From Candidatus Terraquivivens tikiterensis (lineage in GTDB: Archaea > Thermoproteota > Nitrososphaeria_A > Caldarchaeales > Wolframiiraptoraceae): DNA of 38,152 nucleotides. The notes under the pieces are model-generated. The model worked only from the letters and a program-made list of their open reading frames with translations, had not been told where the DNA came from and made no database searches. Location of the stretch: assembly GCA_003056285.1 (NCBI GenBank), contig NDWU01000003.1, forward strand, positions 69,522 to 107,673. Direction: 5' to 3'. The position numbers were made by a program, and so were the translations under genes. This document shows positions 20,030-28,312 of this stretch, piece by piece (the stretch's first letter is position 1; each line of letters begins with the position of its first letter).

Positions 20030-20220
20030 TCCAAAAGCCGGATAGAGCCTCTGGGCCGAAAAGGGAGGTTCGGGCGGTCAATATGGGAAAAAGCATTCCA
20101 TGCCCTAACGAGAGGCATAGGATGGCGGAGGCGTGAGCCCCGCGAACCAGCAGATGTGACCGGAGGCGCAAAGCCCGGCCGAACGCTGGAAGCTCCGGCT
20201 TTAGGTGTGGAGTAGCTCAC
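20030..20220 (+). mobile_element. IS200/605-type relic, TnpB tail and right end
   Basis: Gene-free stretch ending in GAAGCTCCGGCTTTAGG and TGTGGAGTAGCTCAC, a hairpin plus the reverse complement of GTGAGCTAC. Before it, GGCGGAGGCGTGAGCCC, CGCGAACCAG and GGCCGAACGCTGGAAGC match, with few changes, the reverse complement of 24802-24885. This shows two copies of one element subtype in opposite orientation. No long open frame is left. Lies between truD and trmI. Confidence 0.65.
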
Positions 20221-23459: not shown

Positions 23460-23529
23460 CACCGCGGAGAGGTCCCGTATCCCTTAGTATCGGTATATGG
23501 GCGAACATTTTTACGCCTCTCTACCTTCT

Positions 23530-23710
23530 GCTGCCTTTGCTAGGGATATGACGGCCGATGCCAAGCCTGCGGAGACCGTAGCTCCGCAACCGCCTTCTGG
23601 ACATTTCCTTCGGAAGGGGCCTCGCAAAAGTGGCCTGCGCTCCGGTGGGGCTGGGACCGGGCCGGTCGCTGAAGCAGAGGCCTACTGGCTTGTAGGCATG
23701 GGTAGCTCAC
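23530..23710 (+). mobile_element. IS200/605-type relic, TnpB tail and right end
   Basis: The plus strand keeps an 85-residue open frame (23497-23754) whose part AEAEAYWLVGMGSSHF resembles the TnpB tail AGSPLAYGLGSS of the 6.5-kb relic. It ends with GGCATGGGTAGCTCAC, the family's right-end signature. The rest of the 23460-23917 gap holds an AT-rich promoter-like region before the next gene and nothing else recognisable. The open frame is treated as debris and not as a gene. Confidence 0.55.
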
Positions 23711-23917
23711 ACTTCCCTGCTCCACTCCGCTTTGGCAGCATGCGTGCTCCTTAGCGATGGATAGGGTGTCACGGCCGTCGAGCCTTTGGAAGAAGTTAAA
23801 GGGGTTAACGGTTCGCTTTCTGTGGCTAAGAGAGCCTCTACTTACCCAGAACGCGGAGATTCAACCTTTTAAAGACACTAAAAATAAAAGTCAGTCGTTA
23901 AAGAGAGGGCTCAGCGT

Positions 23918-24778
23918 ATGAGGGCTGCTAAGGTTGCCTTTTTTATTTTGCTATTCTTGGTTTTTCAACCAACCGTACTATCCGAAAGGCCATACGCCGT
24001 TAACGAGGCAGCTTTGAAGGTATTTACGGATGGTACTGTCCAGGTCTCCATCGCAGTCGCAGTCAGCGAGGTAGAGCCATCCGTCACCATTCCGCTTTTA
24101 TCCCCAAAAGAACACGTATTCAACGTGATCGTTCTTGACGAGTCTGGAGCGCCGCTCGATTACGACCTTGGAAATAAAAACATAACGATCTATTCCCTTG
24201 GCGCCAGCAGCGTCTTTCTAGAATACGATACGGACGCTTTAACGCGCAAGGAGGCAGGGTTGTGGACTTTAACGCTTGCTACGCCTTTTGAGCTAACCGT
24301 GCTTTTCCCTGAAAACTCCATGCTGGTATACATGAACGCACCACCATCGACCATAAGCTCAGATGAAGGGAGGCTTAAGCTAGTCCTTTATCCTGGGGAT
24401 TGGGAGATAAGCTACGAGATACTCCGTCCAGAGGCGAGGGCTACGACGACACAGACGGAAACACCCGTCGAGTCCATGCCCGCCTCAGGCCGTTACATCT
24501 TGGCCGCAGGCATCGTCGCTGCCCTCGCGGTCGGGCTGATGGCCTGTCTGATTTTAGCCAGGCGTAGAAGAAGGTTTGGAGGGCTCAAGGCGGAGGAGGC
24601 AGAGGTCGTTCGCTTCTTGGAAGAACACGACGGAAGGGCTTTGGAGGCGGAGCTGAGGGAGGCTTTCCCAAACATCCCCAGGACAAGCATGTGGAGGCTT
24701 ATTAAGAGGTTAGAAAAGAGGGGGATCCTAAGGGTCAGGAAGGTGGGGCTCCAGAACGTAGTAGAGCTTATCCGGTGA
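23918..24778 (+). CDS. Membrane-anchored winged-helix protein
   Basis: A 286-residue protein with three parts. Residues 1-22 are a signal peptide (AKVAFFILLFLVFQPTVLS). Residues 23-185 form a beta-rich extracellular part with no recognised family. GRYILAAGIVAALAVGLMAC (about 190-209) is a membrane helix followed by ILARRRRR. The cytoplasmic C-terminus is a winged helix (EEAEVVRFLEEHDGRALEAE, then PRTSMWRLIKRLEKRGILRV). This layout suggests a one-component sensor that carries an outside signal to DNA, as in several archaeal membrane-bound regulators. Target genes and signal are unknown. Its TGA stop lies in the GTGAGCTAC end of a transposon relic. Confidence 0.75.
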   Translation: MRAAKVAFFILLFLVFQPTVLSERPYAVNEAALKVFTDGTVQVSIAVAVSEVEPSVTIPLLSPKEHVFNVIVLDESGAPLDYDLGNKNITIYSLGASSVFLEYDTDALTRKEAGLWTLTLATPFELTVLFPENSMLVYMNAPPSTISSDEGRLKLVLYPGDWEISYEILRPEARATTTQTETPVESMPASGRYILAAGIVAALAVGLMACLILARRRRRFGGLKAEEAEVVRFLEEHDGRALEAELREAFPNIPRTSMWRLIKRLEKRGILRVRKVGLQNVVELIR

Positions 24779-25023
24779 GCTACTTCCCGACTTTAAGCCA
24801 GGATGTTTCCAGCGTTCGGCCTGTGCTTTGCGCGCCGTGTTCACTTGTTCGCGGGCTCACGGCTCCGCCACCGTGGAGCTCATTACCCTATGGGCTATGC
24901 TTACGCATGCATTTCAACAGCTTAGGCATCTGAGTATTCTTCCCTTGGCCAGGCAACATGTAGCTCCAAAATGCTTTAAGTTTGCCAACCCATACCCGGG
25001 CTAAAAGCCCTTGGTTTTATGGG
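24775..25023 (-). mobile_element. IS200/605-type relic with both end hairpins
   Basis: The right end GTGAGCTACTTCCCGAC begins at 24775 and overlaps the stop codon of the preceding gene. Bases 24802-24885 match the reverse complement of the 20.1-20.2 kb relic. The far side has a nested hairpin: GGGCTAAAAGCCC (24998-25010) inside CCCATA (24989-24994) and TATGGG (25018-25023), similar to left-end hairpins of the family. No coding remains. The hairpin could also end transcription of the 25.0-26.3 kb gene. Confidence 0.6.
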
Positions 25024-25040
25024 CACAAAAGTTGTAAAAA

Positions 25041-26309
25041 TTACGGCAATGAGAACTCGGCCGTAGCCTCGAGCGGTTGCTTGCCCTCTTCGTAGGTTCC
25101 CTGCACCCTGACCCTGTATTCTCCCGGTGAGGGTTGCTTAAGCTTCAAGACGACGTGAGCAGCTTGTCCTGGTTCCAGCGAAACTAAGGCCTGGGCAGAC
25201 ACGGGTGAGTAGTAGGGTTCCCATACCCCATCCCTGTTCTTCCGCTCTATCGTTAAACCGTAGACTGTGTTTTGGAAGCGTAGAATCACGCTTCCAACGT
25301 TCTCCACCACGACCTCTAAAGTGACCCACTTGAGGTTCCCAGTAACCTTTTTCGCATCAACCCTTACGCTCAGCCCAGGCACCCCCTCGATCTTAGAGGG
25401 CGCGGGCGTGGCAAGGAGGGGCGCGACCCTATCCTCTAGCTTGCTGAGGCCTTTTGCTAGCGATCCCAGTTGACCCATTAGGCCTTTGGCACCTTTTGGC
25501 TCAGTGCTTTTGATAGTTTCCTTTAGATGCAGTATGCTCTCCTGAAACTTTTCCATTCCATGTTCTGTGAAGTTTACGCCCGCCGCCTTTAGTCTATCGA
25601 CAATCCCTCCGTACCTTTCTTGGAGCTTTTCCACGAAGCGCTCCATCCTTCTTGGCAATGCCTCCTCAGCCATCGACTTTAATGCTTGGCTGATGAGCCT
25701 ATTGGCCTCGGCGATCGCGTGGGCAGCCCCGGACACATTCCCTTCTCTAAGGAGTTCTGCTATGCTGTCTATGTTCAGGAGGCTTTTGGCGGCCTCCAAC
25801 GTTGCTTGAACCTCTGGTAAAGATTTCTCAAGGCGTGCTATCCTCTCCAGGGTACGGCTGGCCGCTACGAGAAGTCCTTGGGCCTTGACGGAACTATCCT
25901 CCCCGACCCCTTCGTGCTCCAAGGCCTGTGCCAATCCCATACGGGCCTCGCGAAGCCTCTCCATCGCGCTTATGGCTAAGCTCGTAGCCTCGCCGTAGTT
26001 CCGCTCCCGAATCGCTACCTCGGCTTGGTTGAGTAAAGCCTTCCCTTCTCCGTAAAGCTTTTCAGCATCCGTTACGTTGGCGCCCAAACTAGCCTTTTTA
26101 GCCTCGTTTATGAAGGATTCGACGCGAAGCAGAGCTTTCTCCGCTAACCCAACGATAGCCTCGGCCCTTTCAACCTCACCTGATGAAGGCGTTGCTGCGG
26201 CAGAAGTAAGCATTAAAAGCTGGGCGGATACCATAACGAGTACGAAGACAGCGCTTACCAGAAGAGCAGAGGCATTTTTCGGCATGCCAGTTTTCACCGC
26301 ACAACCCAT
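25041..26309 (-). CDS. Secreted helical protein with C-terminal Ig-like domain, unknown function
   Basis: A 422-residue protein. A signal peptide (SALLVSAVFVLVMVSAQLLM, about residues 14-33) suggests export. Residues about 45-290 are helical with heptad-like Ala/Leu/Glu patterns (for example VGLAEKALLRVESFINEAKK). Residues about 305-420 look like an all-beta domain resembling BsuPI-type or Ig-like folds (LEVVVENVGSVILRFQNTVY, SLEPGQAAHVVLKLKQPSPG, YRVRVQGTYEEG). No anchor or enzymatic motif. It may be a surface or envelope protein. The promoter region faces the ABC transporter genes divergently. Confidence 0.7.
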   Translation of the reverse strand: MGCAVKTGMPKNASALLVSAVFVLVMVSAQLLMLTSAAATPSSGEVERAEAIVGLAEKALLRVESFINEAKKASLGANVTDAEKLYGEGKALLNQAEVAIRERNYGEATSLAISAMERLREARMGLAQALEHEGVGEDSSVKAQGLLVAASRTLERIARLEKSLPEVQATLEAAKSLLNIDSIAELLREGNVSGAAHAIAEANRLISQALKSMAEEALPRRMERFVEKLQERYGGIVDRLKAAGVNFTEHGMEKFQESILHLKETIKSTEPKGAKGLMGQLGSLAKGLSKLEDRVAPLLATPAPSKIEGVPGLSVRVDAKKVTGNLKWVTLEVVVENVGSVILRFQNTVYGLTIERKNRDGVWEPYYSPVSAQALVSLEPGQAAHVVLKLKQPSPGEYRVRVQGTYEEGKQPLEATAEFSLP

Positions 26310-26513
26310 GACAAAGCATAAAGATAAGGGATGCTATGAAACGCTGCGTTTCACCTTGTGAAAAGCATGAATTTACCGGTATAAGCGATAAGACTAAAAT
26401 TTTTACAACCGAACGTCAACTATCCAGGATAGGCTGAGAGGGCGCAAACACGACATCATCAAGGTTTGGATTCCATCTATGTTTCGCTAATCGAAACTGT
26501 TGCTTATGTAAAG

Positions 26514-26545: not shown

Positions 26546-27544
26546 ATGGATTTTGCGGTTCAAGTTAAAAATCTTGTTAAGGTTTATGATGGAAAGGTGA
26601 AAGCCTTAGATGGCGTTGAATTGGATGTGGAGCCTGGAGAGGTATTCGCTCTGCTTGGTCCGAACGGCGCTGGCAAAACCACGCTTATAAGGATTTTGAC
26701 AACACAGCTTAAGCCTACGGCCGGGGAGGCATACATCTTCGGGCTAAACGTTGTCCGCAATGGTGGCAAAGTTAGAAGGTTAATAAGCTACGTCCCTCAG
26801 GAGATGAGTGTTTGGACAGATATTAGCGGCTATGAGAATCTCCTAGTGTATGCGAAAATTTTTGACGTACCCAGCCATGAAAGAGGTAAGATAATCGATG
26901 AAGTTTTGGAAAACATGGGTTTGACGCATGTAAAAAACGACCTCGTTAGGACGTATTCTGGCGGGATGATAAGAAGGCTCGAAATAGCCTGTGCCATGCT
27001 TACCAAGCCGAAAATCATGTTCCTAGACGAGCCGACTATAGGTCTGGACCCAGCCGCGAGAAAAGTTGTTTGGGAAAGGCTTGGCGTTTTCAAGGAGGAG
27101 TATGGTGTAACAATATTTTTCACCACGCACTATATGGATGAGGCCGACCTTTACGCGGATGACATAGCCATAATCAACCAAGGAAAGATAGTGGCAAGAG
27201 GTACAAGCGAAGATCTAAAGCATTCCTTGGGCGGAGAGGTTATCTCATTTACGCTTGAAAAGGCTGCCATTAAACCCGAATTATTCCAAGAGCTTCGGAA
27301 ACTAGTTTTTGTAAAGGATGTTTTGGTCGAAAATGGAAGCTTAAATGTTTTCGTCGACGATGCTGAATCCACGTTGTCCATTCTGATGAATTTTTTGAAA
27401 AGCGAAGGGTTGTCTGTAGGAAAGGTTTCTATAAATAAGCCAACCCTGGATGATGTTTTCCTTAAGCACGTTGGGACACGGCTCGAGGAGAAAGGCAGAA
27501 TTAGCGACGTTACGCAAATGCGGTACATGATTAGGAGGGGATAG
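26546..27544 (+). CDS. ABC transporter ATP-binding protein (DrrA-like)
   Basis: ATPase of an ABC-2 type exporter. Walker A GPNGAGKTT is at 38-46, the Q-loop follows in ISYVPQEMSVW, the ABC signature is YSGGMIRRLE, Walker B is KIMFLDEPTIG with a downstream H-loop TTHYMDEADLY. The C-terminal 90 residues (KPTLDDVFLKHVGTRLEEKG near the end) are the extra domain typical of daunorubicin-resistance (DrrA) type exporters. The partner permease begins three bases after the stop. Substrate unknown; family members export drugs, lipids or polysaccharides. Confidence 0.92.
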   Translation: MDFAVQVKNLVKVYDGKVKALDGVELDVEPGEVFALLGPNGAGKTTLIRILTTQLKPTAGEAYIFGLNVVRNGGKVRRLISYVPQEMSVWTDISGYENLLVYAKIFDVPSHERGKIIDEVLENMGLTHVKNDLVRTYSGGMIRRLEIACAMLTKPKIMFLDEPTIGLDPAARKVVWERLGVFKEEYGVTIFFTTHYMDEADLYADDIAIINQGKIVARGTSEDLKHSLGGEVISFTLEKAAIKPELFQELRKLVFVKDVLVENGSLNVFVDDAESTLSILMNFLKSEGLSVGKVSINKPTLDDVFLKHVGTRLEEKGRISDVTQMRYMIRRG

Positions 27545-27547
27545 GGG

Positions 27548-28312
27548 ATGATGGAAGGTCTCAAGAATATGCTGGTTATGATCGAGCTTGAATTGAGAAG
27601 GTTGCGCCACGATAGGACGGAAATCTACTTTAGGGCAGTCCAGCCAATCCTGTGGATACTCATCTACGGTCCTGTCATGAGCAGCGTTAGGGCAATACCC
27701 ACTGGCGGTGTACCATACACGGATTTCATAACCCCGGGCGTTATGATCCAAACAACGACCTTCGTCAGCATATTCTATGGGTTGATGATGGTTTGGGAGC
27801 GGGAATCCGGCATTTTAAAGAAGCTACTCGTCACGCCAGCCTCGAGGTATTCCATGGTGATAGGGAGGTCCATGGCTTCGGGCGTAAGGGCCCTATTCCA
27901 AGCTTTAATAATCCTGCCCATAGCCCTCATAATCGGCGTTCGGTTTATACCCAACCCGGCCTACTTCTCCTTAGCCTTCACGATAATCTTCTTTGCTTCA
28001 GGCGGATTCGCAGCCATATCAATACTTGTCGCCTCCTTCATGAAAACCCGTGAAAGGTTTATGGGTATAGGCCAAGCCATAATCATGCCCCTGTTCTTCG
28101 CAAGCAATGCCTTATACCCGGTCCAAATGATGCCGCCAATCCTAAGAGAATTTTCAACCTTCAATCCGCTAAGTTACGTTGTAGACGCGGTGAGGGGGTT
28201 GTTGATCACTGGAGACCTTTCCAACCTTTTAATGGATTTGGTTGCGATAGCCATATTCGACGCAGTATCGTTCATTTTGGCATCGATAAGTTTCAAGCGT
28301 ATCATAGAATGA
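27548..28312 (+). CDS. ABC-2 type transporter permease
   Basis: Membrane partner of the ATPase before it. The 254 residues contain about six membrane helices, preceded by the cytoplasmic start MIELELRRLRHDRTEIYFRA. The loop MMVWERESGILKKLLVTPAS and the conserved FFASNALYPVQMMPPILREF plus FNPLSYVVDAVRGLL are diagnostic of ABC-2 permeases. It is translated almost back to back with the ATPase gene, so the two form one operon. Substrate cannot be inferred. Confidence 0.92.
   Translation: MMEGLKNMLVMIELELRRLRHDRTEIYFRAVQPILWILIYGPVMSSVRAIPTGGVPYTDFITPGVMIQTTTFVSIFYGLMMVWERESGILKKLLVTPASRYSMVIGRSMASGVRALFQALIILPIALIIGVRFIPNPAYFSLAFTIIFFASGGFAAISILVASFMKTRERFMGIGQAIIMPLFFASNALYPVQMMPPILREFSTFNPLSYVVDAVRGLLITGDLSNLLMDLVAIAIFDAVSFILASISFKRIIE

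Follow-up and report, generated by a model that had tools for sequence, protein, structure and literature searches.

The gene at positions 23918-24778 (+) of the 38,152-nucleotide stretch of the Candidatus Terraquivivens tikiterensis genome that we analysed (hereafter the window) encodes a 286-residue protein that is, as judged from its sequence and predicted structure, a membrane-anchored one-component regulator, with a sensor and a DNA-binding domain in one chain. A neighbouring gene encodes a helical protein that sequence comparison across the phylum identifies as its conserved, predicted exported partner, and the promoter of that gene carries a palindrome, TGAAACGCAGCGTTTCA (26337-26353, - strand), which we propose as its operator. 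We consider it probable that the regulator is an envelope sensor that uses this operator to activate its exported partner, a reading that we grade slightly lower because of unexplained single-mismatch copies of the site, which occur at about twice the control frequency.

Domain architecture of the regulator

The open reading frame begins with ATG, and its product has matches at E ≤ 1e-3 in 38 of 61 genomes (its own, of 1.54 Mb, included), with many of these matches limited to the winged helix. The gene also occurs in each of the genus's five other genomes, at 64-78% identity, and a family profile finds matches at E ≤ 1e-5 in 208 of 250 genomes of the phylum, again in many cases to the winged helix only.

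A sequence-only reading of the gene had proposed a signal peptide, a beta-rich outer part, a single membrane helix and a C-terminal winged helix in one chain, and each of these appears in an AF2 model built on an alignment of 20 sequences, that of the window included. The signal peptide (residues 1-22, 23918-23983) contains a helix at residues 2-15. It is followed by an all-beta domain, predicted to lie outside the cell (residues 25-170, 23990-24427), with pLDDT of 91-98 per ten-residue block over residues 31-170 and 73 over 21-30, then by a linker of low confidence (172-189), a membrane helix (191-219, 24488-24574; pLDDT 62-73) and the predicted cytoplasmic winged helix (222-286, 24581-24775), modelled at pLDDT 83-91 over residues 225-284. 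The winged helix comprises helices at 225-236, 243-249 and 255-267 and wing strands at 271-276 and 279-284; helix 255-267 is the recognition helix, with methionine at residue 258. A run of arginines after the membrane helix fits the expected cytoplasmic C-terminus. The layout is retained by relatives: by a hydropathy test, a hydrophobic 19-residue segment separates the outer domain from the winged helix in 79 of 79 full-length entries, and a hydrophobic segment precedes the outer domain in 77 of the 79 (entries L033 and L055 come from a single contig, G088:C64, and one locus is therefore counted twice here and in the tally of 83 given below).

The strongest Pfam match to the regulator was DUF7343 (PF24034; E 4.4e-6), which is confined to residues 225-284 and at 26.9 bits falls below the curated cut-off of 27.6, yet is matched at E ≤ 0.1 by all 20 aligned members; MarR_2 and DUF5305 also matched, both far under their cut-offs, and an NCBIfam search gave nothing useful. 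At the level of fold, the C-terminal domain is predicted to be a MarR-type winged helix, its model superimposing on 4xrf (Z 11.1, 1.1 Å over 64 residues) and on MftR in complex with operator DNA (8ylg_B; Z 9.6, 1.1 Å over 65 residues), so the DNA-binding fold proposed for it is present in the model.

The outer domain had been described as belonging to no recognised family. This holds for the sequence libraries used, in that the domain had no Pfam or NCBIfam match; the ribophorin family profile did not match the regulator at E ≤ 1 in Pfam, nor was it among the 25 families listed of the 42 that matched the 20 aligned members, and a PDB sequence search gave nothing convincing, with OST1 appearing only at E 1.1 and one match in this region to a viral polymerase chain at E 0.0079. 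It does not hold for the fold, which is recognisable. Several OST1 and ribophorin chains tied at the top of the fold-search list, among them yeast OST1 (6ezn_A; Z 13.1, 2.9 Å, 147 residues aligned over model residues 21-172), and the N-domain of an M1 aminopeptidase also aligned (1z1w; Z 11.2, 3.8 Å, 136 residues). Over most of its length, then, the outer domain is predicted to share the fold of the lumenal domains of ribophorin I/OST1 and of M1 aminopeptidase N-domains, but unlike these it has no significant sequence match to them, is accompanied by no peptidase domain and is attached to a winged helix.

An exported helical partner

The partner gene (25041-26309, - strand) encodes a 422-residue protein with a signal peptide, helices over residues 43-300 and an Ig-like domain at about 310-422, although comparison with relatives makes the GTG at 26297-26295 the likelier start. 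Its AF2 model has a mean pLDDT of 77 and a pTM of 0.34, and a fold search gave no useful match for the helical bundle at 43-300, the ranked list being filled by the Ig-like domain. The sequence-only reading had placed the regulator downstream of the histone gene and upstream of this one. The neighbours are as stated, but the two genes converge from opposite strands, and the partner gene is hence not downstream of the regulator in one operon. The same convergent layout is found in all four other genus genomes that carry both genes on one contig.

The spacers on either side of the regulator differ from those of its relatives. Between the histone and regulator genes lies a GC-rich insert (23465-23720), where four of five genus relatives have a gap of only about 90-105 bp; nine other places in the same genome match parts of it at 71-85% identity, and its ends look like what we take to be those of an IS605-type element. 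The spacer after the regulator (24789-25040), reduced to 3-8 bp in four genus relatives, shares an inverted stretch of 78% identity with 20123-20201. We considered structured RNA in the intergenic stretches and discarded it: only two tRNAs in the window passed the Rfam gathering thresholds, and the stretch at 23465-23880 is instead partly a repeated element.

The pairing of the two genes extends well beyond the genus. A profile of the helical protein found 74 places in 250 genomes (after removal of 20 matches to the C-terminal domain alone), 52 of which lie within 3.5 kb of a listed regulator and 43 within 600 bp; excluding the ten places on which the profile was trained, the paired fraction is 42 of 64. 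The 52 paired places are divided between convergent (26), same-direction (24) and divergent (2) arrangements. An iterated profile placed a helical ORF within 1.5 kb of 61 of 83 regulator entries, a fraction that is not unbiased, most loci having been picked for the absence of a partner in the first search or sampled from those with one; it matched only 67 non-regulator ORFs among 1683. The other 22 entries have no helical ORF within 1.5 kb, some of them at contig ends. Hydrophobic segments are confined to the first 40 residues in all 62 partners lying within 3 kb; each of these proteins has at least one, and 61 have exactly one. In 29 entries, nearly all of family f7, the partner comes after the regulator and the two genes overlap, in most cases by 4 nt. 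The f7 genomes are those of ammonia oxidisers, AmoA being present in all six tested; at four f7 loci (L083-L086) no partner was seen. Some regulators contain helical inserts that weakly resemble the partner (best E 3.2e-5 in the set of 1683 ORFs with filters off, where heptad bias is possible).

A palindrome upstream of the partner gene

Binding sites had been suggested near the regulator's own promoter and near that of the gene at 25.0-26.3 kb. The second suggestion was borne out by a palindrome conserved far beyond the genus, found by alignment of the helical-gene promoters of five Terraquivivens species and followed by genome-wide pattern searches. In the window the promoter carries TGAAACGCnGCGTTTCA at 26337-26353, which matches the pattern exactly on both strands. 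Allowing up to one mismatch, the pattern occurs at only two places in the whole genome, this one and C2:15208-15224 on another contig, both preceding helical genes. Each of four other genus genomes likewise has a single such place, at the helical gene; the version in G001 has diverged. (A DrrA/DrrB-type ABC transporter at 26546-28312 starts divergently about 190 bp from the window's palindrome and has no match at the corresponding place in the four genus relatives.)

The search of 250 genomes gave 17 places with an exact match on one strand or both, of which 15 lie just before a helical-partner gene or, in one case (G088:C27), a short fragment. The remaining two are in the promoter region of a MacB-type ABC operon (G138:C11) and within a coding ORF (G088:C37:3985), the latter being taken as chance. 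At up to one mismatch there were 61 strand matches, against 12 for a reversed control pattern. Three of the 23 places whose best match has one mismatch were inspected: G000:C2 lies before a helical gene, and G219:C15 and G108:C1 show neither gene; the 22 other than G000:C2 amount to 25 strand matches against the 12 of the control, about twice chance, and a few of them may be real further targets.

Scoring upstream regions in the fetched loci gave a similar picture, with 18 of 27 convergent helical genes reaching at least 12 of 14, against 5 of 975 other ORFs, and those five reduce to four intergenic places beside a regulator or partner. Many partner promoters have no clear palindrome, with 9 of the 27 convergent genes and 7 of 10 in the helical-first class scoring below 12; the same-direction classes reach 12 in 3 of 10 (helical-first) and 4 of 37 (regulator-first) cases, and most regulator-first partners overlap the regulator and lack a separate promoter. 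Within the window, a search at up to three mismatches gave three matches, which is within chance (10 of 100 shuffles); the case for an operator rests on the exact, conserved sites.

The regulator's own promoter did not live up to the other suggestion: no such palindrome lies upstream of the regulator in the window or in the genus promoters, which gives no sign of autoregulation there. Sites beside the regulator were seen only in the f5 loci L140, L142 and L143. In two of these, a 275-281 residue exported protein is encoded divergently from the regulator (L142 1874-2719, L143 5193-6020), with an intergenic palindrome common to both that, from its position, suggests autoregulation in those loci.

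Promoter geometry and related operons

Among 26 promoters (the sites scoring at least 12, plus that of the paralogue on contig C2), 21 have a TYCCTTA-like box after the palindrome, at a distance of 5 nt in 20 and 6 nt in one. The window's copy is TCCCTTA at 26325-26331 (-), 5 nt after the palindrome, and its distance to the start codon leads us to regard the box as the presumed BRE/TATA region. A further GTTTCA-like half-site stands 4-9 nt ahead of the palindrome in 11 of the 26; the window has a degenerate form, TTTTCA (26359-26364, -), 5 nt before it. Half-site and box together match exactly at seven places in six genus genomes, all at helical genes and with every genome covered, and in the window's own genome matched only the two helical promoters; the combination also has seven one-mismatch places elsewhere in the genus, where the control gave 16 matches. 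As a search for a regulon in the 250 genomes it proved too short, returning many scattered places.

The same elements recur in differently organised loci. In ammonia oxidisers the operon consists of three genes, a 95-residue soluble winged-helix protein at its head (L049, L059-L062, L065, L067, L070, L075 and L077), the regulator and the partner. Of the 13 loci examined, 12 have a GTTTCA-like half-site 5 nt before a TYCCT-like box at the promoter (with ATTTCA in one of them and TACCT in one); in the thirteenth, the promoter region is hidden by the start used. Other genera of the family to which the window belongs have the helical gene as the last of an ABC operon, read in L040 as an ATPase, a secreted protein and a MacB-like permease. 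Tandem GTTTCA half-sites occur near the start of this operon in all four loci examined; 5 nt later comes TTCCTTA in two of them and a variant in each of the other two. The MacB-type operon of G138 with the exact site (L137 5019-9672) encodes an ATPase, a secreted multi-domain protein and a permease, and from its promoter would be a possible second target. We found no clear site at the MacB-type operons of the window's own genome and genus and did not retain them as further targets, the best reaching 11-12 of 14 (12 in L167 and L170, with 1-nt spacing).

Proposed mode of action and alternatives

Based on its sequence and model, the regulator would be inserted with the ribophorin-like beta domain outside the cell and the winged helix in the cytoplasm. 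There the winged helix would bind the palindrome, often together with the third half-site, and would probably do so as a membrane-held dimer or oligomer. The bound site would abut the presumed BRE/TATA region of the helical-protein gene, and the rigid 5-nt spacing leads us to infer that the bound winged helix recruits basal transcription factors. Outside the cell, the exported helical protein could meet the regulator's outer domain and gate its activity, and the pair may thus form a feedback loop that tunes an envelope function to its own state; the conserved pairing suggests such a loop, as do, weakly, the helical segments inside some regulators.

MarR-type winged-helix proteins often repress, and the regulator could instead be a repressor on the operator, released when its outer domain senses stress or when the partner runs short. 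The placement of the operator, at a fixed distance upstream of the presumed BRE/TATA region, argues against this. Sites upstream of BRE/TATA accompany activation for TrmBL1, Tgr and Ptr2 (PMC4158304), and the predicted palindrome here has the position that is activating for TrmBL1 and Tgr of Thermococcales. Repression is for us an unlikely account of the circuit.

A second alternative concerns the form in which the winged helix acts. A single membrane helix with a short juxtamembrane segment would allow the domain to be freed by intramembrane proteolysis and to act as a free transcription factor, but the linker and the membrane helix are poorly conserved, and we judge release of this kind to be quite unlikely.

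Another view is that the operator belongs to a separate, soluble winged-helix protein, with the membrane protein merely sharing the neighbourhood and signalling in some other way. The 95-residue protein that adjoins the regulator in ammonia oxidisers could bind there, but in the window a Pfam scan of seven neighbours found no winged-helix family, and the regulator is present in all 15 genomes that have the exact site before a helical gene or fragment. In addition, differences in the site follow differences at residue 258, which lies in the recognition helix of the membrane protein. We examined the 29 of 76 partner entries with a site scoring at least 11 at the usual distance, leaving out those below 11. 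Where residue 258 is methionine or leucine, the third base of both arms is A in 23 of 23 entries; where it is valine the arms are mixed (two AG and two AA); and where it is threonine or alanine both arms have G, in two of two. The entries are related by descent, the search was biased towards TGAAAC, and the site in the low-scoring entry L074 is probably due to chance. The regulator's occurrence in all 15 genomes and the covariation of its recognition helix with the site support it, short of proof, as the best candidate to bind the palindrome, and we regard a soluble binder as improbable.

Contig C2 of the same genome holds a paralogous pair (L053 7572-10881), in which an outer-domain protein of 419 residues, with repeats and a C-terminal hydrophobic anchor in place of a winged helix, is followed by a 560-residue helical paralogue that carries an extra domain and whose promoter keeps the palindrome (at C2:15208-15224, above). 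An operator in a pair that has no winged helix of its own fits control in trans by the window regulator. Although this paralogue, an anchored outer domain beside a helical protein, would also suit a structural envelope complex in which the winged helix serves for protein interaction, no part of the regulator is better conserved within the genus than the winged helix (80-88% identity), and the partner promoter is marked by the palindrome, which makes that explanation very improbable.

The reading we prefer is a membrane-bound activator that would itself bind DNA and signal directly. In some relatives a site of this kind precedes a MacB-type ABC operon, an indication that the circuit's output would be export or transport at the envelope. 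More tentatively, the system as a whole could be a phylum-wide, nearly single-target circuit for envelope surveillance, in which the ribophorin-fold sensor would read the helical partner outside the cell and set transcription of the partner and, in some lineages, of the MacB-type ABC transporter, acting through an operator at a fixed place next to the core promoter. The circuit would then have been retained in lineages ranging from hot-spring Terraquivivens to ammonia oxidisers.

Relation to known systems

Bacterial ToxR and CadC are single chains that carry an N-terminal winged helix, one membrane helix and an outer domain for sensing. The regulator resembles them in its parts and has the opposite order, with the winged helix at the C-terminus. 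Membrane-bound one-component regulators are already known in archaea, as two published accounts attest (PMC6396743; PMC4858521). In the first, ArnR and ArnR1 of Sulfolobus acidocaldarius have an N-terminal HTH followed by two C-terminal membrane helices, and the targets of ArnR are archaellum and pilus genes (PMC6396743). The present protein is like them in being an archaeal membrane-bound one-component regulator with inverted repeats upstream of a target promoter; ArnR and ArnR1 are activators (PMC6396743), a role that we propose for the regulator here. Unlike ArnR, it has the reverse order: a signal peptide leads into a large outer domain, after which come one membrane helix and, at the C-terminus, the winged helix. 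Its proposed target is a paired exported protein. In the second account, arCOG00381 comprises membrane-bound regulators of haloarchaeal pilus loci (PMC4858521). Our protein resembles these in its predicted membrane anchoring and differs in that pfam11748, the family that stands for arCOG00381, was absent from the three Pfam families matching it at E ≤ 1. TrmBL1 and Tgr are sugar-responsive and have many targets (PMC4158304), whereas the protein here is a predicted membrane protein with two strict sites in its own genome. In the open-licence literature searched, we found no report of this topology, of a ribophorin-fold ectodomain, of an exported partner or of a near-single operator in such a regulator.

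Signalling from the envelope to DNA is poorly known in archaea, and there are few circuits in which the sensor, the operator and the target have all been identified. Here all three are predicted to the level of base and residue, and the prediction can be tested on a 65-residue domain and a 40-bp promoter. The circuit would also provide a place to look for envelope sensing in ammonia-oxidising archaea.
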